A stretch of 64,000 nt of DNA from Brachionus manjavacas (Eukaryota; Rotifera; Eurotatoria; Ploima; Brachionidae), in NCBI GenBank assembly GCA_019054805.1, contig JAHQIY010000044.1:124001-188000 (forward strand). The letters run 5' to 3'. Positions 2,252 through 64,000 of this stretch are shown here, in pieces. Positions within the stretch are counted from its first letter, which is position 1. Every line of letters starts with the position of its first letter. The notes under the pieces are model-generated. The model saw only the letters and a list, made by a program, of their open reading frames with translations, had not been told where the DNA came from and searched no databases. The position numbers and the translations under genes were made by a program.

Positions 2252-5200
2252 GTCGAGTTCGCAGAAAAATTAGAAAAATATTATATAATGAAGAAAAATT
2301 GATGAAATGCCATTAAGTGCTCGGATGAGTGGCGCTGTTTATGATGAACGTCCCATAGTAACTTTGGCGGCAGATTGTTGAGTCGTAACCATACCGATGC
2401 CGGTTCCAAGTCCGGATGAAAAAATGGGAGGGAGACTAATCAGCACAAAAATGATGAGTTTTGTCTAAAGGTTGAGACAATAGAAAAGAAAAACATTAAT
2501 TTGAAAAAATAGTCTTTTAGACTTACAGCAAAAAAAGAATAAGGTAATTTTTCTTTAGATCAATTTATTTTCAACAAAAATTTTGAATTAAAAAAAATTA
2601 TTTTCAAAAAAAAGTGCAATACTGCTAACTCTACCATTGGCCGGTCCCAAGTCCGGATGAGAAAATGAGGAGGGGCGGTGATGATGCAGATGCCTAGCGG
2701 CCGGGGCAAGGAGGCTTGCAAGCAAGAGCTAATGACATGTCTGGCAGACCCTTAGTACTTAGTGAAAAAAGTTAAGTATCTTTTTTTGGATATGCTTGTA
2801 TCCATCTATAGATACGCTTGGTTTGTGGTTCCAAGCTAGTCTAAATAGTTGTCGAGTTCGCAGCCATTAAGTGCTCGGATGAGTGGCGCTGCTTATGATG
2901 AACGTCCCATAGTAACTTTGGCGGCAGATTGTTGAGTCGTAACCATACCGATGCCGGTTCCAAGTCCGGATGAAAAAATGGGAGGGAGACTAATCAGCAC
3001 AAAAATGATGAGTTTTGTCTAAAGGTTGAGACAATAGAAAAGAAAAACATTAATTTGAAAAAATAGTCTTTTAGACTTACAGCAAAAAAAGAATAAGGTA
3101 ATTTTTCTTTAGATCAATTTATTTTCAACAAAAATTTTGAATTAAAAAAAAATTATTTTCAAAAAAAAAGTGCAATACTGCTAACTCTACCATTGGCCGG
3201 TCCCAAGTCCGGATGAGAAAATGAGGAGGGGCGGTGATGATGCAGATGCCTAGCGGCCGGGGCAAGGAGGCTTGCAAGCAAGAGCTAATGACATGTCTGG
3301 CAGACCCTTAGTACTTAGTGAAAAAGTTAAGTATCTTTTTTTGGATATGCTTGTATCCATCTATAGATACGCTTGGTTTGTGGTTCCAAGCTAGTCTAAA
3401 TAGTTGTCGAGTTCGCAGCCATTAAGTGCTCGGATGAGTGGCGCTGCTTATGATGAACGTCCCATAGTAACTTTGGCGGCAGATTGTTGAGTCGTAACCA
3501 TACCGATGCCGGTTCCAAGTCCGGATGAAAAAATGGGAGGGAGACTAATCAGCACAAAAATGATGAGTTTTGTCTAAAGGTTGAGACAATAGAAAAGAAA
3601 AACATTAATTTGAAAAAATAGTCTTTTAGACTTACAGCAAAAAAAGAATAAGGTAATTTTTCTTTAGATCAATTTATTTTCAACAAAAATTTTGAATTAA
3701 AAAAAATTATTTTCAAAAAAAGTGCAATACTGCTAACTCTACCATTGGCCGGTCCCAAGTCCGGATGAGAAAATGAGGAGGGGCGGTGATGATGCAGATG
3801 CCTAGCGGCCGGGGCAAGGAGGCTTGCAAGCAAGAGCTAATGACATGTCTGGCAGACCCTTAGTACTTAGTGAAAAAAGTTAAGTATCTTTTTTGGATAT
3901 GCTTGTATCCATCTATAGATACGCTTAGTTTGTGGTTCCAAGCTAGTCTAAATAGTTGTCGAGTTCGCAGCCATTAAGTGCTCGGATGAGTGGCGCTGTT
4001 TATGATGAACGTCTCATAGTAACTTTGGCGGCAGATTGTTGAGTCGTAACCATACCGATGCCGGTTCCAAGTCCGGATGAAAAAATGGGGGGAGACTAAT
4101 CAGCACAAAAATGATGAGTTTAGTCTAAAGGTTGAGACAATAGAAAAGAAAAACATTAATTTGAAAAAATAGTCTTTTAGACTTACAGCAAAAAAAGAAT
4201 AAGGTAATTTTTCTTTAGATCAATTTATTTTCAACAAAAATTTTGAATTAAAAAAAAATTATTTTCAAAAAAAAGTGCAATACTGCTAACTCTACCATTG
4301 GCCGGTCCCAAGTCCGGATGAGAAAATGAGGAGGGGCGGTGATGATGCAGATGCCTAGCGGCCGGGGCAAGGAGGCTTGCAAGCAAGAGCTAATGACATG
4401 TCTGGCAGACCCTTAGTACTTAGTGAAAAAAGTTAAGTATCTTTTTTTGGATATGCTTGTATCCATCTATAGATACGCTTGGTTTGTGGTTCCAAGCTAG
4501 TCTAAATAGTTGTCGAGTTCGCAGCCATTAAGTGCTCGGATGAGTGGCGCTGTTTATGATGAACGTCCCATAGTAACTTTGGCGGCAGATTGTTGAGTCG
4601 TAACCATACCGATGCCGGTTCCAAGTCCGGATGAAAAAATGGGAGGGAGACTAATCAGCACAAAAATGATGAGTTTTGTCTAAAGGTTGAGACAATAGAA
4701 AAGAAAAACATTAATTTGAAAAAATAGTCTTTTAGACTTACAGCAAAAAAAGAATAAGGTAATTTTTCTTTAGATCAATTTATTTTCAACAAAAATTTTG
4801 AATTAAAAAAAATTATTTTCAAAAAAAAGTGCAATACTGCTAACTCTACCATTGGCCGGTCCCAAGTCCGGATGAGAAAATGAGGAGGGGCGGTGATGAT
4901 GCAGATGCCTAGCGGCCGGGGCAAGGAGGCTTGCAAGCAAGAGCTAATGACATGTCTGGCAGACCCTTAGTACTTAGTGAAAAAAGTTAAGTATCTTTTT
5001 TTGGATATGCTTGTATCCATCTATAGATACGCTTAGTTTGTGGTTCCAAGCTAGTCTAAATAGTTGTCGAGTTCGCAGCCATTAAGTGCTCGGATGAGTG
5101 GCGCTGTTTATGATGAACGTCTCATAGTAACTTTGGCGGCAGATTGTTGAGTCGTAACCATACCGATGCCGGTTCCAAGTCCGGATGAAAAAATGGGGGG

Positions 5201-7687
5201 AGACTAATCAGCACAAAAATGATGAGTTTAGTCTAAAGGTTGAGACAATAGAAAAGAAAAACATTAATTTGAAAAAATAGTCTTTTAGACTTACAGCAAA
5301 AAAAGAATAAGGTAATTTTTCTTTAGATCAATTTATTTTCAACAAAAATTTTGAATTAAAAAAATTATTTTCAAAAAAAAGTGCAATACTGCTAACTCTA
5401 CCATTGGCCGGTCCCAAGTCCGGATGAGAAAATGAGGAGGGGCGGTGATGATGCAGATGCCTAGCGGCCGGGGCAAGGAGGCTTGCAAGCAAGAGCTAAT
5501 GACATGTCTGGCAGACCCTTAGTACTTAGTGAAAAAAGTTAAGTATCTTTTTTTGGATATGCTTGTATCCATCTATAGATACGCTTGGTTTGTGGTTCCA
5601 AGCTAGTCTAAATAGTTGTCGAGTTCGCAGCCATTAAGTGCTCGGATGAGTGGCGCTGTTTATGATGAACGTCCCATAGTAACTTTGGCGGCAGATTGTT
5701 GAGTCGTAACCATACCGATGCCGGTTCCAAGTCCGGATGAAAAAATGGGAGGGAGACTAATCAGCACAAAAATGATGAGTTTTGTCTAAAGGTTGAGACA
5801 ATAGAAAAGAAAAACATTAATTTGAAAAAATAGTCTTTTAGACTTACAGCAAAAAAAGAATAAGGTAATTTTTCTTTAGATCAATTTATTTTCAACAAAA
5901 ATTTTGAATTAAAAAAAAATTATTTTCAAATAAAGTGCAATACTGCTAACTCTACCATTGGCCGGTCCCAAGTCCGGATGAGAAAATGAGGAGGGGCGGT
6001 GATGATGCAGATGCCTAGCGGCCGGGGCAAGGAGGCTTGCAAGCAAGAGCTAATGACATGTCTGGCAGACCCTTAGTACTTAGTGAAAAAAGTTAAGTAT
6101 CTTTTTTGGATATGCTTGTATCCATCTATAGATACGCTTGGTTTGTGGTTCCAAGCTAGTCTAAATAGTTGTCGAGTTCGCAGCCATTAAGTGCTCGGAT
6201 GAGTGGCGCTGCTTATGATGAACGTCCCATAGTAACTTTGGCGGCAGATTGTTGAGTCGTAACCATACCGATGCCGGTTCCAAGTCCGGATGAAAAAATG
6301 GGAGGGAGACTAATCAGCACAAAAATGATGAGTTTTGTCTAAAGGTTGAGACAATAGAAAAGAAAAACATTAATTTGAAAAAATAGTCTTTTAGACTTAC
6401 AGCAAAAAAAGAATAAGGTAATTTTTCTTTAGATCAATTTATTTTCAACAAAAATTTTGAATTAAAAAAAATTATTTTCAAAAAAAAAAGTGCAATACTG
6501 CTAACTCTACCATTGGCCGGTCCCAAGTCCGGATGAGAAAATGAGGAGGGGCGGTGATGATGCAGATGCCTAGCGGCCGGGGCAAGGAGGCTTGCAAGCA
6601 AGAGCTAATGACATGTCTGGCAGACCCTTAGTACTTAGTGAAAAAAGTTAAGTATCTTTTTTGGATATGCTTGTATCCATCTATAGATACGCTTGGTTTG
6701 TGGTTCCAAGCTAGTCTAAATAGTTGTCGAGTTCGCAGCCATTAAGTGCTCGGATGAGTGGCGCTGTTTATGATGAACGTCCCATAGTAACTTTGGCGGC
6801 AGATTGTTGAGTCGTAACCATACCGATGCCGGTTCCAAGTCCGGATGAAAAAATGGGAGGGAGACTAATCAGCACAAAAATGATGAGTTTTGTCTAAAGG
6901 TTGAGACAATAGAAAAGAAAAACATTAATTTGAAAAAATAGTCTTTTAGACTTACAGCAAAAAAAGAATAAGGTAATTTTTCTTTAGATCAATTTATTTT
7001 CAACAAAAATTTTGAATTAAAAAAAAATTATTTTCAAAAAAAAGTGCAATACTGCTAACTCTACCATTGGCCGGTCCCAAGTCCGGATGAGAAAATGAGG
7101 AGGGGCGGTGATGATGCAGATGCCTAGCGGCCGGGGCAAGGAGGCTTGCAAGCAAGAGCTAATGACATGTCTGGCAGACCCTTAGTACTTAGTGAAAAAA
7201 GTTAAGTATCTCTTTTGGATATGCTTGTATCCATCTATAGATACGCTTGGTTTGTGGTTCCAAGCTAGTCTAAATAGTTGTCGAGTTCGCAGCCATTAAG
7301 TGCTCGGATGAGTGGCGCTGTTTATGATGAACGTCCCATAGTAACTTTGGCGGCAGATTGTTGAGTCGTAACCATACCGATGCCGGTTCCAAGTCCGGAT
7401 GAAAAAATGGGAGGGAGACTAATCAGCACAAAAATGATGAGTTTTGTCTAAAGGTTGAGACAATAGAAAAGAAAAACATTAATTTGAAAAAATAGTCTTT
7501 TAGACTTACAGCAAAAAAAGAATAAGGTAATTTTTCTTTAGATCAATTTATTTTCAACAAAAATTTTGAATTAAAAAAAAATTATTTTCAAAAAAAAGTG
7601 CAATACTGCTAACTCTACCATTGGCCGGTCCCAAGTCCGGATGAGAAAATGAGGAGGGGCGGTGATGATGCAGATGCCTGGCGGCCG
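2252..7687 (+). repeat. Satellite array 1: ~9.7 tandem units of about 554 bp, plus orientation
   Basis: A landmark GCCATTAAGTGCTCGGATGA recurs at 2309, 2863, 3418, 3970, 4524, 5078, 5630, 6183, 6738 and 7292, giving spacings of 552-555 bp. Units are nearly identical, differing mostly in A/T homopolymer length and a few substitutions. Each unit holds two GC-rich blocks that share CCGGTYCCAAGTCCGGATGA; the block starts are about 241 and 313 bp apart alternately. AT-rich spacers lie between them, and a third GC-rich stretch around AGGCTTGCAAGCAAGAGC follows the second block. No ORF of 60 codons exists in the array, so it is probably non-coding. The first unit carries an extra AT-rich insert. The last is cut off at 7687, inside the second GC block. 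The same unit returns inverted from 47019. Confidence 0.98.
2265..2308 (+). repeat. AT-rich insert of ~44 bp in the first satellite unit
   Basis: In every other unit GTTCGCAG runs straight into CCATTAAG. In the first one the two halves are separated by about 44 AT-rich bases with no similarity to the unit. It marks the array edge, either as a small insertion or as the join between a partial unit and the first full one. Confidence 0.75.
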
Positions 7688-8023
7688 TTAGAAGAATTGA
7701 CGGCTCTTTAATTCTTCAAGCACATTTTCTTAACCCATTTTGCTGTCAAAAAACTTTTCTGAGCTATTGATTATTACAAAATTATTAATTTTTTTTAATT
7801 TTATTTAATATTTAATTGTAATTAATTTTTCAAATATCATCGCTACCTTGGCGATGTTTAAAGTATTAGAAATAAAAATTCACTTGAGAAATCTTTTTCT
7901 TGACTCTTTGAGATGAAACTTTTATATCTTTCTAAAATTAAAGTCTTTCTCCAACTGCATTGCATAAATTAAATAGATTATTTTTAACTTTTTATCAAAA
8001 ATCATAAAATTAAAATTTCAACT
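7688..8023. other. Spacer between satellite and ACMSD
   Basis: 336 bp of unique AT-rich DNA. Just after the array, GAAGAATT and AATTCTTC form an 8-bp stem around 7692-7718. The remainder is the presumed promoter and 5' UTR of the ACMSD gene; I see no clear TATA box. Confidence 0.5.
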
Positions 8024-9303
8024 ATGAAAATTGACATCCACACCCATATTCTTCCGTCCAGTTTGCCCGATCTAAAATCACGGTACGGCTATCCTGGATG
8101 GATTAACATACGTCAAAATGAGCAAGACCCCAGCTTAGCAGATATGTACAAAGATGAAAAATTTTTTCGCCGCATTGAAAAAAATTGCTGGTGTTTGCCG
8201 GAGCGTTGCTGTGACATGTCCAAAACAAATGTAACTGCCCAAGTATTGTCAACAGTTCCAGTAATGTTCAACTACTGGGCCAAGCCCCAACATACAATGG
8301 ACCTATGTCACCTTTTAAACAATGACATGATTTTTCAAATAAGTCAAAATAAAAAAAGTCAAGCCCGACTCTATGACTTGGACAATTCTCATAAAGAACA
8401 AAAATTTTTTGCCTTTGGTACTCTACCAATGCAGAAACCAGAGATAGCCATTGACGAAATGAGCCGGTGTGTCAAAGACCTCGGCTTCCAAGGCTTTCAA
8501 ATCGGAAGTCACATAAACGAGTGGAATTTGGATGAAAAAAAACTTTATCCAATTTGGAAAGTAGCCTTTTTTTTAAATAAAAATTTTTTTCTAATTTTTC
8601 TTAGCGAGCTGAAGACTTAGACTGTCCGATATTTGTGCATCCATGGGACATGGAACATGTCAGTCGAACTACTAAATACTGGCTGCCATGGCTCGTAGGA
8701 ATGCCAGCAGAGACTTGTACAGCAATTTGCAGTCTGCTAATGGGAAATGTTCTGGCACAATTTCCGCGCTTAAAAATTTGCTTTGCTCATGGTGGCGGAT
8801 CATTTCCATTCACTATCGGTCGAATTCAGCATGGCTATGATGTCAGGCCTGACTTGTGCGCCACAGAGTGTTCCATTCCACCAAAAGAATTCCTCGGTAA
8901 ATTTTACACAGACTCGCTGGTGCACAGTCAACCATCCCTGGACCTTTTGATTAAAGTTATTGGCGAGGACAGAATAATGCTGGGAACGGACTACCCCTTC
9001 CCTCTAGGTGAACTATCGCCAGGATCTTTGATTGAGTCTTCCCATTTGACCAAATCGATAAAGGTATTTTTTTTAATTTAAATGGAGCACAATTGTGAAT
9101 TGAAGCTGTGTTAATTTAATGACCGACTTGTGATTTTAGGCCTAATTAGACAAAAGTGTTGAGATAATTTTATTTTTTTGTTTCATGATTTATTATTTCA
9201 AATATTTTAAGTATTTTTCAAAAGCAAGGTTTTGCTTGAGCAGCTTCTAGACATGCAAAATGCGCACTTAAAATTAGACTTGATAAATGGTGCTTTTATT
9301 TAG
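8024..9303 (+). CDS. ACMSD: 2-amino-3-carboxymuconate-6-semialdehyde decarboxylase (ACMSD)
   Basis: Exons 8024-8560, 8605-9063 and 9244-9303 give 351 residues (family about 336). ACMSD removes CO2 from aminocarboxymuconate semialdehyde in the kynurenine branch of tryptophan breakdown, diverting flux from quinolinate and NAD. It is an amidohydrolase with a zinc site. Visible are the N-terminal metal pair H6/H8 in MKIDIHTHILP, H191 in FVHPWDM, H241 in CFAHGGGSFPF and the catalytic Asp near 308 in LGTDYPFPLGE. Also conserved are STVPVMFNYWAKP and KYWLPWLVGMPAET. The first two exons are secure. The 19-codon last exon is inferred: it restores a C-terminus with LLDMQNA matching the family's final NAL-type helix, and phase 0 is kept. 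A poly(A) signal lies at 9410-9415. Confidence 0.93.
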
Positions 9304-9762
9304 TTATCTTCGTTTTTTTTTGTTAAGACTGGTTATTATAAAATATATAGATAACATATTGCCTTAAGCATAACTGATCTTAATATAATTAATCCAAAAT
9401 TTGTTTGAAAATAAATATCTATTTTATTTTTAAACAAATAAGTATTTTAATTTAACAATTTATTTTTCTGGCAAGCGTGTTTTTTATTACATCATAAAGT
9501 AAACAAATGCTATTTGTTTTTTGTTGCATAAGTATTAATAAAAATCATAATTTTGTTCCATTTAATCAATTCAGAGCTAAAAGATTATTTTTAAATGCTT
9601 TAAGGATAAATTGTTGTACAAAAATGCCCTCAGTTTTTTAGGCATCGATGCATTGTGATTTAAATTAATTTTTTAATTTAAATAAATTTATTTAAAATAT
9701 TTTTTTTCAATTTTAAATGGTTTATCACGCACCTAGAGTCAAATTTTTTCAGTAAATTAAAC

Positions 9763-9841
9763 GTTGTAGCAGAACAAAGTGTTCGGTGGCTTGTTGCAAC
9801 CCAATGACCGGAACAAGTGCCAAGCGGTAATGGGCTAAGCT
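9763..9841 (-). other. Candidate exon, unknown gene
   Basis: An isolated GC-rich stretch in very AT-rich surroundings. On the minus strand it is preceded by AAAATCAG (acceptor-like) and followed by CAAC/GTTTAA (donor-like). Two frames are open: one reads ...LALVPVIGLQQATEHF..., the other ...LPLGTCSGHWVATSHR.... The second is the one in phase with the candidate exon at 10280-10421. I recognise neither. It could equally be a non-coding RNA exon or a conserved regulatory element. Confidence 0.25.
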
Positions 9842-10279
9842 CTGATTTTCAAATTTGTTTTTTAATACCTTTGGTTTATAGATCATTTGCATTCTATATA
9901 AAGCTATTGATTAGCATCAGAATTGAAATTGGTTTATAAAACAAGATAAAATTATAAATTTTTACTTTTGTGTCAAATAATGACTCGTTTTCTACCAACT
10001 TTTCATCATGGATTTATTTTAATATTCAATAGTAATCACATGAAATTTTGGTATGATTTTTATCAAAAGTTTTTATTTATCATTTTAGACTGTTAACAAT
10101 TAATTTTCAAATATTTAAATTTTGTCCTCTTCATAAAATTTTTATTAAAGCAAAGGTAGCTTTATTTAAGATAAAAAATTGTAAAGGTCGGCAAAAAGTA
10201 TCAGGTTAAGAGGATTATTGATTGATCTTTAAAATGTAAAAAAAAAGATATTTAAAGAGAAAAGTGAAGATAATGTAAC

Positions 10280-10421
10280 CTTTATGCTCAGTCACTAGTT
10301 TTCTAATTAGAATTCCACTCTGAGCCAATGTTTCCTGTTGTTTGTTAGACTTAAAAAAATCATTATTGCCATGATCACACAGCAGGTTTAATTTTTTTAG
10401 TAAAGTAAATATTTGTTCTTT
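10280..10421 (-). other. Candidate exon, unknown gene
   Basis: A minus-strand open stretch of 47 codons plus one base, bounded by CATCAG/AAAG and AAAG/GTTACA, both plausible splice sites. The peptide contains LLKKLNLLCDHGNND and SGILIRKLVTEHK and looks like a helical repeat segment, not random AT-rich translation. No start, stop or convincing partner exon was found nearby other than 9763-9841. It may belong to a gene with most exons missing, or be a relic. Confidence 0.3.
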
Positions 10422-13106
10422 CTGATGTAGAACCAAAATAAATATTTCGATTTTTCGAAAATTAATTTTGACTTTAAAGACTCAATTTTCGCCTGATCAT
10501 GTTTCTTTATTTAAAAATAATTATCTAAATTTTTCAAATTTATTTTTTGATCAAAATTATTTTTATTGAGTCATTTAAACTAAATGCTTAAAAAAGCATT
10601 AATTTGAGTGAAAAAAATATATGTATAATAAAATTTGTTTATTAAATAACAAATAAAATAATACAAGCACAAATAAATGAAACATGCTACTTTTACTCAG
10701 TATTGAACCTTTTAATCACATTGATCAAACAAAATGTTAAAAAAAATTAAATTCGTTTTGCTATTTAGTCAATTTAAAAATTTGTTTTGGTTTTCAGTTC
10801 GCTGGTTTTTGGTTATGTTGATGATTTTTGTTATTAACAATATTCAATTGTATTAATGTGTGATAATAAAAAAATTAAATTTAAATTTTTTTTTATTTAT
10901 TTATGAACCAGCATTGAGTGTTGAACTCAACAGATAAGATATTAAAAAAAAATAAATTTTTTTTATAACTGATGAATTATAAGAAAAATTGGTAATTTTC
11001 GTCTGTATTACTTATTTTAGGGGAACTCTGGTAGTTATTGAATATATATTTTATGCTGACCATTGGCATATTATTTGAATAACTTAGAGAATAAAAGTGA
11101 TAGAAGGCTTAAATAATTTGAAAAAATGAGCAGCATACTTTTTTTCAATTAAAAGATTCTTAAGTTTTTGGATCAGAAAAATATGATAAACAGCAGTTCG
11201 ACTATTTTATTGAAAGTCTTAATATTATGCAAAAACAAAGGGTTTTCTTAGATACTTGAAAATAACATTTATAAATTTATTCTTTCTTATTATCAAGGAT
11301 ATGATCTTGCTTAAAATTTTTTACAAAATTAGTTATCAGTTTTTAATTTAAGCTAAGGATTAAAATATGTTGGACGCTGTGAAATTATAAGTAAATTGAA
11401 AAGATAAAATACAGCAAATTTTTAGATGGCCAAAAATAAAAAATAAATTATCAATAAAATTTTTATTCGATTATTGATTTGATTGATTTAAACAAAAAAA
11501 CTAGATATCTTTTATGGAATTTTATGTGATCAGCTTTTAATTTAATTTTAAAAAATTTGAAGAATTTTTTTATTAATTAAAACGAAATTTTTTATCTAAT
11601 AATAATTTAAGTTTACATCAATTTTTCAAAAATTGGTTCTGGCATTTTTCTGAGAAGCGCAATTCAAATTTTTTTTTCAGATATATAAAGGCGAAAAAGT
11701 TTTTAAAGTAAATTTTGAAGTTAATTTTAAATTTAAAAAAATTGTGTCCAAGGTATAACTGTATCTCAAAATATTATAAAATAAAAATACATAAAAGCTT
11801 TTTTTATTTTTCTCAAATCTCTAGAAACAAAAAGAAATTAAGTTTTCAATAATTGGCTATGGCTACACATTTTTTCTGTCTTTGTTTTCTGAGAAGCACT
11901 AGTCCAAGTGAATTTCGAGCATGAAGCAAAAAAAAATTTAGGTAAAATTGAATAAAATTTCAAATAAATCATTTAAAAAAAATTACATTTTTAAATTTAT
12001 CAAAGTTCATTTTTTAAATTGAATAATTTTTTTCAAATCTCTACAAGCAAAATTAAAGTTAATATCTTATTTCGATGAAAACACATCATTCGTAATGATA
12101 AATTAAAATTAATTTCCATTTTCGAGGGAAAAAACACAGAGGCCCTTAATAATAATCTAATTCTTGATTACATAATATAAAATTGAATCTAAAGCCGAGA
12201 TATTAGCGGCAAGAAACAAACCATTGGTAATCTCGGGGTATTAAGCAACGCTTCAAATTCAATCCATTGTCAAGATTGTTTGTTAAAACCATAAAACACA
12301 GCGAAAAGATTGTTTTAATATGATATGCTAGGAAAAATTGGCAAAGAGAGCGCAATAGAGAAAATTAAGTATGCGCTTTTAGTTTATAATTTTCAAATTT
12401 TTATGAAAACCAAGCTTAAGCATAATTTTATGAAATATTAAAATCAAACAATTAGAATCAAACTGTTTGCTTTCAAGAGCGCTTTCTGGGTCTTCGCAAA
12501 TCGAGGGGATTCGAAAATTTAGAGGCCCTAGAGCCGCAAGTCTTGACAAATTGCTTCACCTGCTCATAAGGCGGCACTCACAATCACCCAAAATTAAAAT
12601 GCAAATTATGACAAATAATGTAAATTATACTAGGTGAATTTGTTAATTCTCAAATATTATTAAGTTAAATATTTGCGCAAGTTTTTAAAAAAATCTGCAA
12701 CTTTATCTCAAATAAATTTGATAAAACTTCAAAAAGGTCTAAGTTATCTTCTTTTAAATGTCATGTTAAAGGCAGGCTTTTTGTTGTTGCTTTGTTTGAA
12801 CAAACGTCAATTAAAGACTGCCACAGGGCCGAATTATACACTTTTCTGAATTATTTTATTTTTTTGTTTAAAAATTGGTCTCTAATTAGAGTTTCACGGG
12901 ATTAAACTAGGCCCCCCTCTATTGTTCGACTTATGCTCCAGTTTTTCCATTAATAAACACCGTGTTTAAATACTTGTTTTTTATTCTATTGATAGCGAGA
13001 CTTTGTGAAAAGAACGAGTATCTGACGAGACTGATCACTTTCAAATGTCAACTAAAGGTGGTTTAATTTTGTTGTCACTTTTCTTTAGATTTAATGAGCG
13101 CTTCTG

Positions 13107-16100: not shown

Positions 16101-17412
16101 TTTTTAAAATTTCTACAGTTATTTTTGTTTGTTAAATTGTAATTTGTGTTTTTATGTTTCCTTTTCAACTTGCGTATGAGGCTTAAAATTTTTTTAAATA
16201 AAAAAATAAATAACAATAATAAAGATAATTAGCTTGTGAATTTTATTTTTAGCAAGAATGTATTTAATATTAATTTTTTGAAATGAAATCTTTATTAAAT
16301 ATTTAAAATGAAAGAAGATTTTTACTATGTTTAACTTAAAGTCAAATTAAATATTTAATTTTGTAAATTTAAAATTAGAATTTTTTAATAAGTATTAAAA
16401 AAAAATTATTTTTAAATCTTTTACCAAAATTATTTTTCCGTAAATTACCGTAAAATCCAATTACTGGAAAAATAAAATTTGACCAAAGAATTTTATTATT
16501 TAATTCAAGCATTTTAATTTTTTTAATAAGTGCTTACACGAATACGTCAAGTACAGCATTCAAAATTGTAATGTCCTTCCAATACAATGTCCAGACTCAA
16601 AATGTAAATACAGTGGATATTTGACCGATGACGAAATTCAGCTGATACTAAACACCCGCTACGAAACCGACACGAACAACAACACATATTCAAGTTTAGA
16701 GGACATTGACAGCCAAGGTGAAAAAGTGTGCTTCATTGAACCAAACAAAAATGTCGACTTGTATGAGCGCTATTTAAGCTTATGCGAGGAATTCAAAATT
16801 TTGCGCGACCCATCCAAGGTCTACTGTCCACAACCTTTGTGTCAAAACATTTGCAGCAAAGGCGATGAAAAAAAAATAGTTTGTGATAAATGTTCCCATG
16901 AGTTTTGCGCCCAGTGTTCCAAAGCATGCAAAGCAAATGGTGTGACTGTCGACACCTGCACTTGTACCACTTCATCTGAATCAAATTTTAATTTTGAAAA
17001 CATAAAACGGTGTCCCAATTGCTCAATTTTGATCGAGCGAGCCGACGGATGCGCTCAGATCATGTGCAAAATATGTAAACACACTTTTTGTTTTTATTGT
17101 TTGACTTCTTTAGAGGTATTTTGTTTAAATGGAAAAAAATTCTGATAAAGTTTTTCAATATTTATTTTATAGAATGATTATTTGCTAAAACATTATACAA
17201 GAGATGGACCATGCAAAGGCAAGCTTGGACACTCGAAGATATCGTTGTTTTTCCACCGTGTCAGCGTGGTAGCTGTCTTTTCGGGCACCATTGCCCTTCT
17301 AGTAGTGCTGTCACCGTTTCTCCTGTTCGCATTGCCATGTATTGTTCTTAACCGAAATTTTAGAAAAAACTGTGTCGACAAAATATCAACAAAAATCGGA
17401 CAGTCTAATTAA
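13107..17412 (+). CDS. RNF144-type RBR E3 ubiquitin ligase, tail-anchored
   Basis: Exons 13107-13406, 16531-17115 and 17173-17412 join in phase 0 to 374 residues. Order: a Ser/Arg-rich N-terminus of about 70 residues; RING1 opening with CKIC and, across the first splice, CKCKFCTN-CLHEYVKYSI; IBR (YCPQPLCQNIC, CDKCSHEFCAQCS); RING2 (RCPNC, ERADGCAQIMCKICKHTFC). The Cys of GCAQ is where this family forms the ubiquitin thioester. Then LGHSK and one hydrophobic segment VVAVFSGTIALLVVLSPFLL, the membrane anchor typical of RNF144A/B. RBR ligases accept ubiquitin from an E2 and then transfer it to substrate. The first intron is 3.1 kb and the second 57 bp. An in-frame stop precedes the chosen ATG. 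Poly(A) signal at 17579-17584. RNF19 is a less likely alternative because it is longer and has two membrane spans. Confidence 0.92.
13407..16530 (+). other. Long first intron of the RNF144-like gene
   Basis: 3.1 kb between RING1 half-exons, GT at 13407 and AG at 16529-16530. The sequence is AT-rich without recognisable genes or transposon ends. An AT-rich stretch near 16436-16460 contains CCGTAAATTACCGTAAAAT, similar to the motif cluster at 42560-42700. Confidence 0.7.
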
Positions 17413-38518: not shown

Positions 38519-38591
38519 CTAATGACAAACATTTATCATGTCAATAAATCGAACTTACATTAGATAGGTCAAACCATGGCAGCATTTTTCC

Positions 38592-38599
38592 TATAAATA
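38592..38599 (+). promoter_or_regulatory. TATA box of CARM1
   Basis: TATAAATA lies 56 bp before the CARM1 ATG, leaving a predicted 5' UTR of roughly 25-30 bases, with a CCAAT element further upstream. Confidence 0.55.
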
Positions 38600-38647
38600 C
38601 TTGACTTTTGCTAACCATAGATCATCAAATTTTAGAAAAGCCAAATC

Positions 38648-53000: not shown

Positions 53001-56000
53001 AACTATTTAGACTAGCTTGGAACCACAAACCAAGCATATCCAAAAAAGATACTTAACTTTTTTCACTAAGTACTAAGGGTCTGCCAGACATGTCATTAGC
53101 TCTTGCTTGCAAGCCTCCTTGCCCCGGCCGCTAGGCATCTGCATCATAACCGCCCCTCTTCATTTTCTCATCCGGACTTGGGACCGGCCAAAGGTAGAGT
53201 TAGCAGCTTTGCATTTTTATTTTGAAAATAATTTTCTTTAGATTCAAAATATTGGTTAAAAAACAAATTGATCTAAAGAAAAATTACCTTATTCTTTTGT
53301 TGCTGTAAGTCTAAAAGACTATTTTTTTCAAATAAAAGTTTTTGTTTTCTTTTCTCTCAACCTTTTGACAAAACTCATCATTTATGTGCTGATTAGTCTC
53401 CCTCCCATTTTTTCATCCGGACTTGGGACCGGCATCGGTATGGTTACGACTCAACAATCTGCCGCCAAAGTTACTATGGGACGTTCATCATAAACAGCGC
53501 CACTCATCCGAGCACTTAATGGCTGCGAACTCGACAACTATTTAGACTAGCTTGGAACCACAAACCAAGCGTATCTATAGATGGATACAAGCATATCCAA
53601 AAAAAGATACTTAACTTTTTCACTAAGTACTAAGGGTCTGCCAGACATGTCATTAGCTCTTGCTTGCAAGCCTCCTTGCCCCGGCCGCTAGGCATCTGCA
53701 TCATAACCGCCCCTCTTCATTTTCTCATCCGGACTTGGGACCGGCCAAAGGTAGAGTTAGCAGCTTTGCATTTTTATTTTGAAAATAATTTTCTTTAGAT
53801 TCAAAATATTGGTTAAAAAACAAATTGATCTAAAGAAAAATTACCTTATTCTTTTGTTGCTGTAAGTCTAAAAGACTATTTTTTTCAAATAAAAGTTTTT
53901 GTTTTCTTTTCTCTCAACCTTTTGACAAAACTCATCATTTATGTGCTGATTAGTCTCCCTCCCATTTTTTCATCCGGACTTGGGACCGGCATCGGTATGG
54001 TTACGACTCAACAATCTGCCGCCAAAGTTACTATGGGACGTTCATCATAAACAGCGCCACTCATCCGAGCACTTAATGGCTGCGAACTCGACAACTATTT
54101 AGACTAGCTTGGAACCACAAACCAAGCGTATCTATAGATGGATACAAGCATATCCAAAAAAGATACTTAACTTTTTCACTAAGTACTAAGGGTCTGCCAG
54201 ACATGTCATTAGCTCTTGCTTGCAAGCCTCCTTGCCCCGGCCGCTAGGCATCTGCATCATAACCGCCCCTCCTCATTTTCTCATCCGGACTTGGGACCGG
54301 CCAAAGGTAGAGTTAGCAGCTTTGCATTTTTATTTTGAAAATAATTTTCTTTAGATTCAAAATATTGGTTAAAAACAAATTGATCTAAAGAAAAATTACC
54401 TTATTCTTTTGTTGCTGTAAGTCTAAAAGACTATATTTTTCAAATAAAAGTTTTTGTTTTCTTTTCTCTCAACCTTTTGACAAAACTCATCATTTATGTG
54501 CTGATTAGTCTCCCTCCCATTTTTTCATCCGGTCTTGGGACCGGCATCGGTATGGTTACGACTCAACAATCTGCCGCCAAAGTTACTATGGGACGTTCAT
54601 CATAAACAGCGTTACTCATCCGAGCACTTAATGGCTGCGAACTCGACAACTATTTAGACTAGCTTGGAACCACAAACCAAGCGTATCTATAGATGGATAC
54701 AAGCATATCCAAAAAAGATACTTAACTTTTTTCACTAAGTACTAAGGGTCTGCCAGACATGTCATTAGCTCTTGCTTGCAAGCCTCCTTGCCCCGGCCGC
54801 TAGGCATCTGCATCATAACCGCCCCTCCTCATTTTCTCATCCGGACTTGGGACCGGCCAAAGGTAGAGTTAGCAGCTTTGCATTTTTATTTTGAAAATAA
54901 TTTTCTTTAGATTCAAAATATTGGTTAAAAACAAATTGATCTAAAGAAAAATTACCTTATTCTTTTGTTGCTGTAAGTCTAAAAGACTATTTTTTTCAAA
55001 TAAAAGTTTTTGTTTTCTTTTCTCTCAACCTTTTGACAAAACTCATCATTTATGTGCTGATTAGTCTCCCTCCCATTTTTTCATCCGGACTTGGGACCGG
55101 CATCGGTATGGTTACGACTCAACAATCTGCCGCCAAAGTTACTATGGGACGTTCATCATAAACAGCGCCACTCATCCGAGCACTTAATGGCTGCGAACTC
55201 GACAACTATTTAGACTAGCTTGGAACCACAAACCAAGCGTATCTATAGATGGATACAAGCATATCCAAAAAAGATACTTAACTTTTTCACTAAGTACTAA
55301 GGGTCTGCCAGACATGTCATTAGCTCTTGCTTGCAAGCCTCCTTGCCCCGGCCGCTAGGCATCTGCATCATAACCGCCCCTCCTCATTTTCTCATCCGGA
55401 CTTGGGACCGGCCAAAGGTAGAGTTAGCAGCTTTGCATTTTTATTTTGAAAATAATTTTCTTTAGATTCAAAATATTGGTTAAAAACAAATTGATCTAAA
55501 GAAAAATTACCTTATTCTTTTGTTGCTGTAAGTCTAAAAGACTATTTTTTTCAAATAAAAGTTTTTGTTTTCTTTTCTCTCAACCTTTTGACAAAACTCA
55601 TCATTTATGTGCTGATTAGTCTCCCTCCCATTTTTTCATCCGGTCTTGGGACCGGCATCGGTATGGTTACGACTCAACAATCTGCCGCCAAAGTTACTAT
55701 GGGACGTTCATCATAAACAGCGCCACTCATCCGAGCACTTAATGGCTGCGAACTCGACAACTTTTTAGACTAGCTTGGAACCACAAACCAAGCGTATCTA
55801 TAGATGGATACAAGCATATCCAAAAAAAGATACTTAACTTTTTTCACTAAGTACTAAGGGTCTGCCAGACATGTCATTAGCTCTTGCTTGCAAGCCTCCT
55901 TGCCCCGGCCGCTAGGCATCTGCATCATAACCGCCCCTCCTCATTTTCTCATCAGGACTTGGCACCGGCCAAAGGTAGAGTTAGCAGCTTTGCATTTTTA

Positions 56001-59000
56001 TTTTGAAAATAATTTTCTTTAGATTCAAAATATTGGTTAAAAACAAATTGATCTAAAGAAAAATTACCTTATTCTTTTGTTGCTGTAAGTCTAAAAGACT
56101 ATTTTTTTCAAATAAAAGTTTTTGTTTTCTTTTCTCTCAACCTTTTGACAAAACTCATCATTTATGTGCTGATTAGTCTCCCTCCCATTTTTTCATCCGG
56201 ACTTGGGACCGGCATCGGTATGGTTACGACTCAACAATCTGCCGCCAAAGTTACTATGGGACGTTCATCATAAACAGCGCCACTCATCCGAGCACTTAAT
56301 GGCTGTGAACTCGACAACTATTTAGACTAGCTTGGAACCACAAACCAAGCGTATCTATAGATGGATACAAGCATATCCAAAAAGATACTTAACTTTTTTC
56401 ACTAAGTACTAAGGGTCTGCCAGACATGTCATTAGCTCTTGCTTGCAAGCCTCCTTGCCCCGGCCGCTAGGCATCTGCATCATAACCGCCCCTCCTCATT
56501 TTCTCATCCGGACTTGGGACCGGCCAAAGGTAGAGTTAGCAGCTTTGCATTTTTATTTTGAAAATAATTTTCTTTAGATTCAAAATATTGGTTAAAAACA
56601 AATTGATCTAAAGAAAAATTACCTTATTCTTTTGTTGCTGTAAGTCTAAAAGACTATTTTTTTCAAATAAAAGTTTTTGTTTTCTTTTCTCTCAACCTTT
56701 TGACAAAACTCATCATTTATGTGCTGATTAGTCTCCCTCCCATTTTTTCATCCGGTCTTGGGACCGGCATCGGTATGGTTACGACTCAACAATCTGCCGC
56801 CAAAGTTACTATGGGACGTTCATCATAAACAGCGCCACTCATCAGAGCACTTAATGGCTGCGAACTCGACAACTTTTTAGACTAGCTTGGAACCACAAAC
56901 CAAGCGTATCTATAGATGGATACAAGCATATCCAAAAAAAGATACTTAACTTTTTTCACTAAGTACTAAGGGTCTGCCAGACATGTCATTAGCTCTTGCT
57001 TGCAAGCCTCCTTGCCCCGGCCGCTAGGCATCTGCATCATAACCGCCCCTCCTCATTTTCTCATCCGGACTTGGGACCGGCCAAAGGTAGAGTTAGCAGC
57101 TTTGCATTTTTATTTTGAAAATAATTTTCTTTAGATTCAAAATAATGGTTAAAAACGAATTGATCTAAACAAAAATTACCTTATTCTTTTGTTGCTGTAA
57201 GTCTTAAAGACTATTTTTTTCAAATAAAAGTTTTTGTTTTCTTTTCTCTCAACCTTTTGACAAAACTCATCATTTATGTGCTGATTAGTCTCCCTCCCAT
57301 TTTTCATCCGGACTTGGGACCGGCATCGGTATGGTTACGACTCAACAATCTGCCGCCAAAGTTACTATGGGACGTTCATCATAAACAGCGCCACTCATCC
57401 GAGCACTTAATGGCTGCGAACTCGACAACTATTTAGACTAGCTTGGAACCACAAACCAAGCGTATCTATAGATGGATACAAGCATATCCAAAAAAGATAC
57501 TTAACTTTTTTCACTAAGTACTAAGGGTCTGCCAGACATGTCATTAGCTCTTGCTTGCAAGCCTCCTTGCCCCGGCCGCTAGGCATCTGCATCATAACCG
57601 CCCCTCCTCATTTTCTCATCCGGACTTGGGACCGGCCAAAGGTAGAGTTAGCAGCTTTGCATTTTTATTTTGAAAATAATTTTCTTTAGATTCAAAATAT
57701 TGGTTAAAAACGAATTGATCTAAACAAAAATTACCTTATTCTTTTTGTTGCTGTAAGTCTAAAAGACTATTTTTTCAAATAAAAGTTTTTGTTTTCTTTT
57801 CTCTCAACCTTTTGACAAAACTCATCATTTATGTGCTGATTAGTCTCCCTCCCATTTTTTCATCCGGACTTGGGACCGGCATCGGTATGGTTACGACTCA
57901 ACAATCTGCCGCCAAAGTTACTATGGGACGTTCATCATAAACAGCGCCACTCATCCGAGCACTTAATGGCTGCGAACTCGACAACTATTTAGACTAGCTT
58001 GGAACCACAAACCAAGCGTATCTATAGATGGATACAAGCATATCCAAAAAAGATACTTAACTTTTTCACTAAGTACTAAGGGTCTGCCAGACATGTCATT
58101 AGCTCTTGCTTGCAAGCCTCCTTGCCCCGGCCGCTAGGCATCTGCATCATAACCGCCCCTCCTCATTTTCTCATCCGGACTTGGGACCGGCCAAAGGTAG
58201 AGTTAGCAGCTTTGCATTTTTATTTTGAAAATAATTTTCTTTAGATTCAAAATATTGGTTAAAAACAAATTGATCTAAAGAAAAATTACCTTATTCTTTT
58301 GTTGCTGTAAGTCTAAAAGACTATTTTTTCAAATAAAAGTTTTTGTTTTCTTTTCTCTCAACCTTTTGACAAAACTCATCATTTATGTGCTGATTAGTCT
58401 CCCTCCCATTTTTTCATCCGGACTTGGGACCGGCATCGGTATGGTTACGACTCAACAATCTGCCGCCAAGGTTACTATGGGACGTTCATCATAAACAGCG
58501 CCACTCATCCGAGCACTTAATGGCTGCGAACTCGACAACTATTTAGACTAGCTTGGAACCACAAACCAAGCGTATCTATAGATGGATACAAGCATATCCA
58601 AAAAAAGATACTTAACTTTTTTCACTAAGTACTAAGGGTCTGCCAGACATGTCATTAGCTCTTGCTTGCAAGCCTCCTTGCCCCGGCCGCTAGGTATCTG
58701 CATCATAACCGCCCCTCCTCATTTTCTCATCCGGACTTGGGACCGGCCAAAGGTAGAGTTAGCAGCTTTGCATTTTTATTTTGAAAATAATTTTCTTTAG
58801 ATTCAAAATATTGGTTAAAAACAAATTGATCTAAAGAAAAATTACCTTATTCTTTTGTTGCTGTAAGTCTAAAAGACTATTTTTTCAAATAAAAGTTTTT
58901 GTTTTCTTTTCTCTCAACCTTTTGACAAAACTCATCATTTATGTGCTGATTAGTCTCCCTCCCATTTTTTCATCCGGACTTGGGACCGGCATCGGTATGG

Positions 59001-62000
59001 TTACGACTCAACAATCTGCCGCCAAAGTTACTATGGGACGTTCATCATAAACAGCGCCACTCATCCGAGCACTTAATGGCTGCGAACTCGACAACTATTT
59101 AGACTAGCTTGGAACCACAAACCAAGCGTATCTATAGATGGATACAAGCATATCCAAAAAAAGATACTTAACTTTTTTCACTAAGTACTAAGGGTCTGCC
59201 AGACATGTCATTAGCTCTTGCTTGCAAGCCTCCTTGCCCCTGCCGCTAGGCATCTGCATCATAACCGCCCCTCCTCATTTTCTCATCCGGACTTGGGACC
59301 GGCCAAAGGTAGAGTTAGCAGCTTTGCATTTTTATTTTGAAAATAATTTTCTTTAGATTCAAAATATTGGTTAAAAACAAATTGATCTAAAGAAAAATTA
59401 CCTTATTCTTTTGTTGCTGTAAGTCTAAAAGACTATTTTTTTCAAATAAAAGTTTTTGTTTTCTTTTCTCTCAACCTTTTGACAAAACTCATCATTTATG
59501 TGCTGATTAGTCTCCCTCCCATTTTTTCATCCGGACTTGGGACCGGCATCGGTATGGTTACGACTCAACAATCTGCCGCCAAGGTTACTATGGGACGTTC
59601 ATCATAAACAGCGCCACTCATCCGAGCACTTAATGGCTGCGAACTCGACAACTATTTAGACTAGCTTGGAACCACAAACCAAGCGTATCTATAGATGGAT
59701 ACAAGCATATCCAAAAAAAGATACTTAACTTTTTTCACTAAGTACTAAGGGTCTGCCAGACATGTCATTAGCTCTTGCTTGCAAGCCTCCTTGCCCCGGC
59801 CGCTAGGCATCTGCATCATAACCGCCCCTCCTCATTTTCTCATCCGGACTTGGGACCGGCCAAAGGTAGAGTTAGCAGCTTTGCATTTTTATTTTGAAAA
59901 TAATTTTCTTTAGATTCAAAATATTGGTTAAAAACGAATTGATCTAAACAAAAATTACCTTATTCTTTTGTTGCTGTAAGTCTAAAAACTTATTTTTCAA
60001 ATAAAAGTTTTTGTTTTCTTTTCTCTCAACCTTTTGACAAAACTCATCATTTATGTGCTGATTAGTCTCCCTCCCATTTTTTCATCCGGACTTGGGACCG
60101 GCATCGGTATGGTTACGACTCAACAATCTGCCGCCAAGGTTACTATGGGACGTTCATCATAAACAGCGCCACTCATCCGAGCACTTAATGGCTGCGAACT
60201 CGACAACTATTTAGACTAGCTTGGAACCACAAACCAAGCGTATCTATAGATGGATACAAGCATATCCAAAAAAAGATACTTAACTTTTTTCACTAAGTAC
60301 TAAGGGTCTGCCAGACATGTCATTAGCTCTTGCTTGCAAGCCTCCTTGCCCCGGCCGCTAGGCATCTGCATCATAACCGCCCCTCCTCATTTTCTCATCC
60401 GGACTTGGGACCGGCCAAAGGTAGAGTTAGCAGCTTTGCATTTTTATTTTGAAAATAATTTTCTTTAGATTCAAAATATTGGTTAAAAACAAATTGATCT
60501 AAAGAAAAATTACCTTATTCTTTTGTTGCTGTAAGTCTAAAAGACTATTTTTTTCAAATAAAAGTTTTTGTTTTCTTTTCTCTCAACCTTTTGACAAAAC
60601 TCATCATTTATGTGCTGATTAGTCTCCCTCCCATTTTTTCATCCGGTCTTGGGACCGGCATCGGTATGGTTACGACTCAACAATCTGCCGCCAAAGTTAC
60701 TATGGGACGTTCATCATAAACAGCGCCACTCATCAGAGCACTTAATGGCTGCGAACTCGACAACTTTTTAGACTAGCTTGGAACCACAAACCAAGCGTAT
60801 CTATAGATGGATACAAGCATATCCCAAAAAAAGATACTTAACTTTTTCACTAAGTACTAAGGGTCTGCCAGACATGTCATTAGCTCTTGCTTGCAAGCCT
60901 CCTTGCCCCGGCCGCTAGGCATCTGCATCATAACCGCCCCTCCTCATTTTCTCATCCGGACTTGGGACCGGCCAAAGGTAGAGTTAGCAGCTTTGCATTT
61001 TTATTTTGAAAATAATTTTCTTTAGATTCAAAATATTGGTTAAAAACAAATTGATCTAAAGAAAAATTACCTTATTCTTTTGTTGCTGTAAGTCTAAAAG
61101 ACTATTTTTTTCAAATAAAAGTTTTTGTTTTCTTTTCTCTCAACCTTTTGACAAAACTCATCATTTATGTGCTGATTAGTCTCCCTCCCATTTTTTCATC
61201 CGGACTTGGGACCGGCATCGGTATGGTTACGACTCAACAATCTGCCGCCAAGGTTACTATGGGACGTTCATCATAAACAGCGCCACTCATCCGAGCACTT
61301 AATGGCTGCGAACTCGACAACTATTTAGACTAGCTTGGAACCACAAACCAAGCGTATCTATAGATGGATACAAGCATATCCAAAAAAAGATACTTAACTT
61401 TTTTCACTAAGTACTAAGGGTCTGCCAGACATGTCATTAGCTCTTGCTTGCAAGCCTCCTTGCCCCGGCCGCTAGGCATCTGCATCATAACCGCCCCTCC
61501 TCATTTTCTCATCCGGACTTGGGACCGGCCAAAGGTAGAGTTAGCAGCTTTGCATTTTTATTTTGAAAATAATTTTCTTTAGATTCAAAATATTGGTTAA
61601 AAACAAATTGATCTAAAGAAAAATTACCTTATTCTTTTGTTGCTGTAAGTCTAAAAGACTATTTTTTCAAATAAAAGTTTTTGTTTTCTTTTCTCTCAAC
61701 CTTTTGACAAAACTCATCATTTATGTGCTGATTAGTCTCCTCCCATTTTTTCATCCGGACTTGGGACCGGCATCGGTATGGTTACGACTCAACAATCTGC
61801 CGCCAAGGTTACTATGGGACGTTCATCATAAACAGCGCCACTCATCCGAGCACTTAATGGCTGCGAACTCGACAACTATTTAGACTAGCTTGGAACCACA
61901 AACCAAGCGTATCTATAGATGGATACAAGCATATCCAAAAAAAGATACTTAACTTTTTTCACTAAGTACTAAGGGTCTGCCAGACATGTCATTAGCTCTT

Positions 62001-64000
62001 GCTTGCAAGCCTCCTTGCCCCGGCCGCTAGGTATCTGCATCATAACCGCCCCTCCTCATTTTCTCATCCGAACTTGGGACCGGCCAAAGGTAGAGTTAGC
62101 AGCTTTGCATTTTTATTTTGAAAATAATTTTCTTTAGATTCAAAATATTGGTTAAAAACAAATTGATCTAAAGAAAAATTACCTTATTCTTTTGTTGCTG
62201 TAAGTCTAAAAGACTATTTTTTCAAATAAAAGTTTTTGTTTTCTTTTCTCTCAACCTTTTGACAAAACTCATCATTTATGTGCTGATTAGTCTCCTCCCA
62301 TTTTTTCATCCGGACTTGGGACCGGCATCGGTATGGTTACGACTCAACAATCTGCCGCCAAGGTTACTATGGGACGTTCATCATAAACAGCGCCACTCAT
62401 CCGAGCACTTAATGGCTGCGAACTCGACAACTATTTAGACTAGCTTGGAACCACAAACCAAGCGTATCTATAGATGGATACAAGCATATCCAAAAAAAGA
62501 TACTTAACTTTTTCACTAAGTACTAAGGGTCTGCCAGACATGTCATTAGCTCTTGCTTGCAAGCCTCCTTGCCCCGGCCGCTAGGCATCTGCATCATAAC
62601 CGCCCCTCCTCATTTTCTCATCCGGACTTGGGACCGGCCAAAGGTAGAGTTAGCAGCTTTGCATTTTTATTTTGAAAATAATTTTCTTTAGATTCAAAAT
62701 ATTGGTTAAAAACAAATTGATCTAAAGAAAAATTACCTTATTCTTTTGTTGCTGTAAGTCTAAAAGACTATTTTTTTCAAATAAAAGTTTTTGTTTTCTT
62801 TTCTCTCAACCTTTTGACAAAACTCATCATTTATGTGCTGATTAGTCTCCCTCCCATTTTTTCATCCGGACTTGGGACCGGCATCGGTATGGTTACGACT
62901 CAACAATCTGCCGCCAAAGTTACTATGGGACGTTCATCATAAACAGCGCCACTCATCCGAGCACTTAATGGCTGCGAACTCGACAACTATTTAGACTAGC
63001 TTGGAACCACAAACCAAGCGTATCTATAGATGGATACAAGCATATCCAAAAAAAGATACTTAACTTTTTCACTAAGTACTAAGGGTCTGCCAGACATGTC
63101 ATTAGCTCTTGCTTGCAAGCCTCCTTGCCCCGGCCGCTAGGCATCTGCATCATAACCGCCCCTCCTCATTTTCTCATCCGGACTTGGGACCGGCCAAAGG
63201 TAGAGTTAGCAGCTTTGCATTTTTATTTTGAAAATAATTTTCTTTAGATTCAAAATATTGGTTAAAAACGAATTGATCTAAACAAAAATTACCTTATTCT
63301 TTTGTTGCTGTAAGTCTAAAAGACTATTTTTTTCAAATAAAAGTTTTTGTTTTCTTTTCTCTCAACCTTTTGACAAAACTCATCATTTATGTGCTGATTA
63401 GTCTCCCTCCCATTTTTTCATCCGGACTTGGGACCGGCATCGGTATGGTTACGACTCAACAATCTGCCGCCAAGGTTACTATGGGACGTTCATCATAAAC
63501 AGCGCCACTCATCCGAGCACTTAATGGCTGCGAACTCGACAACTATTTAGACTAGCTTGGAACCACAAACCAAGCGTATCTATAGATGGATACAAGCATA
63601 TCCAAAAAAAGATACTTAACTTTTTTCACTAAGTACTAAGGGTCTGCCAGACATGTCATTAGCTCTTGCTTGCAAGCCTCCTTGCCCCGGCCGCTAGGCA
63701 TCTGCATCATAACCGCCCCTCCTCATTTTCTCATCCGGACTTGGGACCGGCCAAAGGTAGAGTTAGCAGCTTTGCATTTTTATTTTGAAAATAATTTTCT
63801 TTAGATTCAAAATATTGGTTAAAAACAAATTGATCTAAAGAAAAATTACCTTATTCTTTTGTTGCTGTAAGTCTAAAAGACTATTTTTTTCAAATAAAAG
63901 TTTTTGTTTTCTTTTCTCTCAACCTTTTGACAAAACTCATCATTTATGTGCTGATTAGTCTCCCTCCCATTTTTTCATCCGGACTTGGGACCGGCATCGG
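47019..64000 (-). repeat. Satellite array 2: more than 30 units of ~556 bp, inverted relative to array 1, continuing past the window
   Basis: The landmark GGCTGCGAACTCGAC recurs 30 times from 47447 to 63526, mostly every 554-558 bp. Two units are 535 bp apart because a 22-bp stretch (GTATCTATAGATGGATACAA plus two bases) is deleted near 51386 and 53034. The unit is the reverse complement of array 1 with array-specific fixed differences. Both GC-rich blocks are kept (CATCCGGACTTGGGACCGG twice per unit). No ORF of 60 codons occurs. Variants are shared by groups of neighbouring units, showing recent multi-unit duplication. The array runs off the end, so its true length is unknown. Confidence 0.98.

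Follow-up and report, generated by a model that had tools for sequence, protein, structure and literature searches.

Inverted tandem arrays on a Brachionus manjavacas contig as candidate clusters of a ribozyme-bracketed RNA gene

We analyzed a stretch of 64,000 nucleotides from the rotifer Brachionus manjavacas (the window; contig C44:124001-188000 of an assembly of 114.17 Mb in 61 contigs), which carries two tandem arrays of a unit of about 555 bp in opposite orientations. Each unit contains a match to the RNA motif RAGATH-11 (Rfam RF03148) between two motifs that resemble the self-cleaving twister ribozyme of type P1 (RF03160). From sequence comparison, we consider the unit to contain an RNA gene flanked by ribozymes still active or active until recently, and we place the probability of this reading at roughly 0.7. 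The arrays would then probably be tandem copies of a noncoding-RNA gene, organized like ribosomal DNA (rDNA), with a conserved RNA-coding block and a freely diverging spacer. The first-pass annotation of this DNA had labeled the repeat a satellite. That label suits it poorly, because a block of about 370 bp, made up of the two twister-like ribozymes and RAGATH-11, is nearly fixed between the arrays and the spacer turns over, which is the pattern of a gene array.

Repeat unit

A BLAST search with one unit against the window located both arrays (Table 1). The plus array spans 5,436 bp, with head-to-tail units at about 99% identity to the query unit. The minus array spans 16,982 bp, and its head-to-tail units are 91 to 96% (mostly about 95%) identical to the plus unit. 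Combined, the arrays make up 35% of the window. Eight internal units of the plus array are 552 to 555 bp long, with a mean pairwise identity of 0.990. In the minus array (mean identity, 0.982), 26 of the 29 internal units measure 554 to 557 bp and two measure 535 bp. Tandem Repeats Finder overlooked both arrays, its maximum period being 500.

A cmscan search of the window with all Rfam models returned 39 RAGATH-11 matches at or above the gathering threshold, 9 in the plus array and 30 in the minus array, all on the strand of their array. They score 94.1 to 104.3 bits, compared to a gathering score of 79.4, cover the full length of the model (positions 1 to 116), and mostly retain its consensus helices. 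RF03148 had no match in 14 control genomes, a weak control, as those named are prokaryotes. The plus array starts within RAGATH-11, and this first copy (window 2252-2308) is interrupted by about 44 bp of different sequence.

A sensitive scan of 1.3 kb detected two type-P1 twister matches in each unit, on the same strand: TW2 (44.1 bits; E value, 3.7e-8) and TW1 (39.4 bits; E value, 8.7e-7; one TW1 variant scored 27.4). The order is TW2, RAGATH-11, TW1, and spacer, followed by the next TW2. The twister core is present, with TAAC, a GCCGGTCCCAAG-CCGG loop, and GAGGG. TAA(C) before helix P2 and GAGGG after P2 are catalytically important in twister ribozymes. We searched for the loop motif with up to 3 substitutions and without demanding TAAC or GAGGG. 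This search found 82 sites in the window; with one array-edge site excluded, TAAC is present at 79 of the remaining 81, GAGGG at 77, and both at 75. At seven other array loci, 117 of the 144 sites found by the loop have both motifs. A separate alignment comprised 24 of the 44 distinct twister sequences (the 20 excluded include changed loops), and since its sites were preselected for TAAC and GAGGG, its invariant columns are not evidence for those motifs.

We positioned the cuts between U and A, as we take them to lie from the known chemistry of twister ribozymes. Measured from predicted cut to predicted cut, the RAGATH-11 fragment, termed R, is 312 to 314 nt long in both arrays, and the spacer fragment is 238 to 244 nt long. 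Two of the 58 minus-array intervals run from TW2 to TW2 (535 to 536 nt), at places where TW1 lacks TAAC.

Table 1. Positions of the arrays, the genes between them, and example unit parts in the window
Feature	Position	Strand	Description	Basis
Plus array	2252..7687	+	~10 tandem ~555-bp units	BLAST
Minus array	47019..64000	-	~30.6 tandem ~556-bp units, running past window end	BLAST
Gene island	7688..47018	.	39.3 kb; amidohydrolase, IBR, MMACHC, Wnt, CARM1/PRMT-type, and cytidylyltransferase exons	Pfam
RAGATH-11 (RF03148), example copy	4456..4576	+		Rfam
TW1, twister-P1-like, 3' of RAGATH-11	4597..4651	+	predicted cut after 4601	39.4 bits
TW2, twister-P1-like, 5' of next RAGATH-11	4837..4893	+	predicted cut after 4841	44.1 bits
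R, predicted excised RNA, 314 nt	4842..5155	+	TW2 cut to next TW1 cut; downstream TW1 here is the weaker variant (27.4 bits)	
R, minus-array example, 314 nt	47372..47685	-	predicted cut to cut	
Spacer between TW1 and TW2	4652..4836	+	fast-evolving part of the unit	

Conservation of the block and its ribozymes

The consensus sequences of the two arrays differ by 24 substitutions; the spacer, with 187 columns, accounts for 21 of them and the rest of the unit, with 370 columns, for 3. Spacer identity between the arrays is 87.7%. An array on contig C24, with a period of about 642 bp, allows a more distant comparison. Spacers of C44 and C24 units are 35 to 36% identical, with about 90 gap columns. 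R and the ribozyme bodies of the same units align gap-free at 94 to 100% identity, and this includes the TW1 body and the TW2 leader, which lie outside R. Between the plus copies of contig C18 and the C24 array, the spacer is 31.5% identical and all else is 94 to 100% identical.

Dispersed copies of the block follow a similar course. We compared 10 of 18 extracted copies, after removal of near-duplicates and of the copy at locus L030. The block interior and both ribozymes have a mean pairwise identity of 0.971 to 0.988, which falls to 0.764 in the 100 columns upstream and to 0.565 in the 100 columns downstream. In these sequence comparisons, the border of conservation coincides on both sides with the outer ends of the ribozymes. 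It is difficult to see why ribozyme parts that lie outside R should be conserved if cleavage has had no importance, now or in the recent past.

The ribozyme helices were analyzed at 229 sites with TAAC and GAGGG (265 examined, 36 excluded), which represent 18 distinct P1/P2 combinations; pairs were counted by segment. In shuffles that ignored the relatedness of the sites, P1 had 58 of 72 cells paired compared to a shuffled mean of 40.3, and P2 had 57 of 72 compared to a mean of 51.0. For each helix, 6 of 10,000 shuffles reached the observed value. The changes that preserve pairing include C-G to G-C, C-G to A-U, and U-A to C-G.

These data bear on the possibility that the repeats are ordinary satellite DNA in which the ribozymes and RAGATH-11 are functionless, decayed relics. 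There is a precedent in the hammerhead-bearing satellite pDo500 of cave crickets (PMC2837043), and some ribozyme sites in the arrays are mutated. Relics, however, should drift like the spacer, which is at odds with 3 substitutions over 370 columns against 21 over 187. Neither the compensatory changes in P1 and P2 nor the conservation border would be expected of them, and we regard this explanation as improbable.

Distribution of copies in the genome

When at most 2 mismatches are allowed, a 35-mer from the RAGATH-11 core matches the genome at 782 places, 300 in forward and 482 in reverse orientation, and the same pattern written backwards, used as a control, matches at none. Individual places were obtained for the first 100 of the 782. 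Among the 47 candidates scored, out of 5,232, RF03148 occurs on C9, C11, C12, C17, C24, and C27. Dispersed copies on C9, C11, C12, and C27 have the order twister, RAGATH-11, twister, with 401 to 403 nt between the predicted cuts. RAGATH-11 is flanked on both sides by twister-P1 matches in all five dispersed loci that were scanned with Rfam, out of 10 returned. The copies at L025 to L027 (C9:1780000-1809700) lie inside a larger repeated segment of about 5.67 kb, mostly 97 to 99% identical, so whole neighborhoods have been duplicated too.

The main rival reading is a retrozyme-like selfish element, that is, a non-autonomous sequence whose ribozyme-cut circular RNA is reverse-transcribed by the enzyme of a host retroelement, with twister in place of hammerhead. 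Known metazoan retrozymes are tandem ribozyme repeats expressed as circles that RtcB can close in vitro (PMC7229834; PMC7761336). Like them, the block exists in hundreds of copies, both in arrays and dispersed, and the C12 copies have reverse-transcriptase frames in their vicinity. A retroposed ring, however, predicts spacer-less head-to-tail copies of R or conservation of the whole unit, and every array has an unconserved spacer between its R segments. The flanks of the dispersed copies remain alignable past the bracket, most clearly upstream, with no abrupt end there. A consistent reverse-transcriptase partner is also lacking among the frames of 110 aa or more in the flanks of 12 of 15 dispersed loci: RVT_1 matched 3 of 54 frames (one below the cut-off), all in the two C12 loci, and other copies have ordinary genes as neighbors, among them genes of tetraspanin, EH domain, PAP2, and kinesin type. 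The cmscan search with all Rfam models gave no hammerhead match at or above the gathering score in the window. We consider a retrozyme-like origin unlikely.

Integration of an exogenous viroid-like circular RNA is hardly credible in comparison. Twister-P1 ribozymes occur in viroid-like circular RNAs, for example, a 406-nt peach RNA with ribozymes on both strands (PMC12542633). The units described here carry ribozymes on one strand only. Ribozymes on both strands are a feature of many, but not all, viroid-like circular RNAs. Three scans of viral contigs with exact patterns, which do not prove absence, gave 0, 2, and 0 matches, and the two matching contigs were without RAGATH-11 or twister. A prokaryotic or phage origin was rejected as a separate candidate: a 19-base exact pattern matched 3 bacterial or archaeal contigs, none with RAGATH-11 or twister, and we judged these matches, like the two viral ones, to be due to chance, with the same reservation that an exact pattern does not prove absence.

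Predicted excision and ring closure

In synthetic Tornado cassettes, two twisters surround an insert and RtcB closes the ring. For the rotifer units, we infer transcription, cleavage, ligation, and function along similar lines. In a transcript spanning the array, twister-type ribozymes would cut each unit twice, TW2 on the 5' flank of RAGATH-11 and TW1 on its 3' flank. Cleavage would free R, about 314 nt long (401 to 403 nt at the dispersed loci), with a 5'-OH at one end and a 2',3'-cyclic phosphate at the other, and the spacer fragment would be thrown away. RtcB would then ligate the ends of R in cis to form a ring, as in the Tornado cassettes. R, with its conserved RAGATH-11 fold, would be the functional product, perhaps acting as a scaffold or decoy for some protein or RNA. 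The genome has an RtcB gene, seen on C5 as two matches separated by 1.9 kb.

Pairing between the two twisters bears on the closure step. Every one of the 17 dispersed copies that have a twister on either side can form 7 of 7 pairs between the 5' P1 strand of its 3' twister and the 3' P1 strand of its 5' twister. This number exceeds the self-pairing of either ribozyme (2 to 5) and the other cross-combination (2 to 4), but as many of the copies are near-identical, it counts as little more than a single observation. Such pairing would bring the ends of R together. In the arrays, the minimum-energy fold of R joins its two ends through ACUC/GAGU. Ring formation by R is plausible, and we hold it at about even odds. 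The complete scheme, a natural Tornado-like system in an animal, with hundreds of copies, excision by a twister pair, a stable ring closed by RtcB, and a RAGATH-11 core, is more tentative and falls somewhat short of even odds.

As to transcription, 9 of 10 dispersed copies have a T run of at least 4 directly after the 3' twister, in flanks that are very AT-rich. We also considered a protein-coding interpretation of R and rejected it on the one long frame that we followed by eye. This frame, seen in some dispersed copies, is disrupted in others by a 1-nt indel, which splits the 17 copies into 11 with GAGGGTGCC and 6 with GAGGTGCC.

Several observations weigh against an RNA gene excised by active ribozymes. 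Every twister match scores below the Rfam gathering threshold of 67.2 bits (27 to 54 bits; best, 53.5), as do all 62 scored genomic matches, and for this reason we call the motifs twister-like. Among the 265 twister sites in the loci examined, 36 lack TAAC or GAGGG. In the arrays, the inner P1 pair of TW1, which adjoins the cut site, is a G-A mismatch, and the final P2 pair of TW2 is missing (U-U), so ribozyme activity may be weak. The helix statistics could be affected by the relatedness that the shuffles ignored, and some of the conservation could be a product of gene conversion confined to the block. Array copies are without the ring-closing P1 (0 pairs, compared to 7 in dispersed copies), and array R has an internal T run of 6 to 7, contrary to transcription by RNA polymerase III.

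The bracket is also incomplete at some loci. We examined 23 RAGATH-11 copies that lie outside arrays. Seventeen, from loci chosen for high RAGATH-11 scores, have a twister on each side; the other 6 (L030 and L046 to L050) lack this bracket, and five of these six come from loci of only about 1 kb. L049 has two twister matches, both upstream of RAGATH-11, L046 and L050 have one each, and L030, L047, and L048 have none. About 4 kb from the twister-less copy at L030, on C17, lies an Argonaute-type frame (L030:2-742; ArgoL2, ArgoMid, and Piwi).

These six unbracketed copies come from a set of eight loci, of which the other two, L044 and L045, have a twister only. The L044 motif (C20:632454-632530, minus strand) has the top twister-P1 score of the whole-genome scan, 47.5 bits. 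It is isolated, its loop starts differently (GTCGG), and its 1-kb locus has no RAGATH-11 match. The L045 motif (C1:1293500-1294500; positions 459 to 513, minus strand; 44.4 bits) is likewise isolated in a 1-kb locus with no RAGATH-11 match. About 440 nt downstream of it, on the same strand, we noted by eye GVPQGSVISPLL, presumably a reverse-transcriptase-like motif, and this twister may belong to a non-LTR retroelement.

Orientation of the arrays and the genes between them

The plus and minus arrays lie on a single assembled contig in opposite orientations, and the stretch between them has Pfam matches to ordinary animal families; the first-pass annotation had described both the inverted flanking arrays and the normal gene block, and both descriptions hold. 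The Pfam scan covered 17 of the 19 open frames of at least 130 aa in the window. The matches between the arrays include a methyltransferase of CARM1/PRMT type (Table 1), and by these matches the island appears to consist of ordinary animal genes. Between the Wnt and arginine methyltransferase genes, an AT-rich segment of 112 bp is duplicated in perfect tandem (window 36939-37147). Upstream of the plus array, a 536-aa open frame (window 3-1610, plus strand) without a Pfam match contains repeated GRPR-type motifs, recognized by eye, which we take to be AT-hook-like. An imperfect 75-bp tandem repeat lies near the start of this frame (window 36-194).

Beyond the window, we read the 10 kb that directly follow it and the last 1.5 kb of C44. 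Minus-strand units fill the former (L037) and are also present in the latter (L042, C44:221201-222700). On C18, minus-strand copies extend from 862 to 43575 and plus-strand copies begin at 189,922. The C18 minus-array consensus almost equals that of the C44 minus array, and because of this near-equality, C44 and C18 may be neighbors broken inside one shared array.

It had also been proposed that the facing arrays can drive inversion of the gene island. Comparison of the 8 plus and 29 minus internal units, with gap columns skipped, gave 21 fixed differences and not one polymorphism common to both arrays; each array appears to have been homogenized separately. This amounts to no detectable exchange between the arrays, and neither recurrent inversion nor frequent exchange through them is supported by the sequences. 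The same differences speak to a possible assembly artifact in which the inverted arrays were misjoined. C44 and C18 do seem to end within arrays, and copies near the end of C44 carry extra indels. The two arrays are nonetheless separable variants with fixed differences, and their ribozyme and RAGATH-11 content is independent of the join; we regard a misjoin as very improbable.

Orientation switches recur in other arrays, namely, those on C18, C24, and C39. On C24, a fold-back junction lies at GCGGCC (L029, about position 6473), just 3' of TW2, and the 3' end of the C44 plus array (window 7687) breaks at the same GCGGCC, also just 3' of TW2; there may be a recurrent breakpoint within the unit. 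A second fold-back junction, on C39, is at a different site. We infer that occasional fold-back junctions at self-complementary stretches would create the inverted layout, after which unequal exchange and conversion would homogenize each array independently.

Significance and comparison with known systems

If the complete Tornado-like scheme is correct, the units would encode a new class of functional circular RNA, with ends made by ribozymes instead of by splicing or processing enzymes, and the orphan motif RAGATH-11 would gain a biological setting. Self-cleaving ribozymes are found in many animal genomes, and those described in the portions of the literature available to us are mostly in selfish repeats. 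Here, they appear to set the ends of a conserved multicopy RNA, the selective footprint of which ends at the ribozyme boundaries. The role of genomic twisters would become directly testable in a small animal genome, and an array labeled as a satellite can, on this reading, be an RNA gene cluster.

Ribozyme-bearing tandem repeats are already known; what appears new here is the architecture, a pair of twister-like motifs around RAGATH-11. Tandem repeats with hammerhead ribozymes and their circular RNAs have been described (PMC7229834, PMC7761336, PMC4918200), as have viroid-like RNAs with twister ribozymes (PMC8216279, PMC12542633). We found no description of paired twisters around RAGATH-11, or of a twister array in an animal genome, in the accessible parts of a literature that excluded most subscription papers, and no paper naming RAGATH-11 in the literature searched. 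In Rfam, RAGATH-11 is classed as an sRNA with a description that gives no function; in the present case it belongs to an animal genome and has a twister-like motif on either side. The units share with the type-P1 twister model the core motifs, P1, P2, and the loop, and lack most of its P3 region.

Metazoan non-LTR retrozymes, tandem repeats of about 150 to 450 bp with a hammerhead ribozyme that are expressed as circles (PMC7229834, PMC7761336), resemble the present arrays in having tandem units, self-cleaving ribozymes, and possible RtcB-closed rings; closure of their RNAs by RtcB was obtained in vitro (PMC7229834). As these sources describe them, they carry hammerhead ribozymes and the ring equals the repeat unit; in the present arrays, by contrast, a pair of twister-like motifs encloses one portion of the repeat, and the spacer is unconserved. 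The Dolichopoda pDo500 satellites likewise combine satellite DNA with a ribozyme (PMC2837043, PMC2808323), but the ribozyme is of another class, and the available parts of these papers contain no bracketed design. Within the genus, genome size variation in Brachionus asplanchnoidis involves satellites (rotiSat), the two most prominent of which have monomers of 154 and 143 bp (PMC8447722). These resemble the present arrays in their tandem arrangement and in a raised GC content within a low-GC genome; the two monomers are not the ~555-bp unit, and the word "ribozyme" is absent from the main text (PMC8447722).

The closest engineered parallel in design is the Tornado cassette, and tandem Twister constructs yield RNA circles in mammalian cells (PMC7229834). 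Tornado is synthetic, whereas the arrays described here are natural and both of their ribozymes are type P1-like. In overall organization, the arrays are comparable to those of rDNA type. Such arrays combine a conserved transcript with homogenized arrays and diverging spacers. The B. manjavacas arrays have the conserved block, the homogenization of each array, and the diverging spacer in common with them, and differ in that the transcript ends would be set by ribozymes and that the orientation of the units switches.

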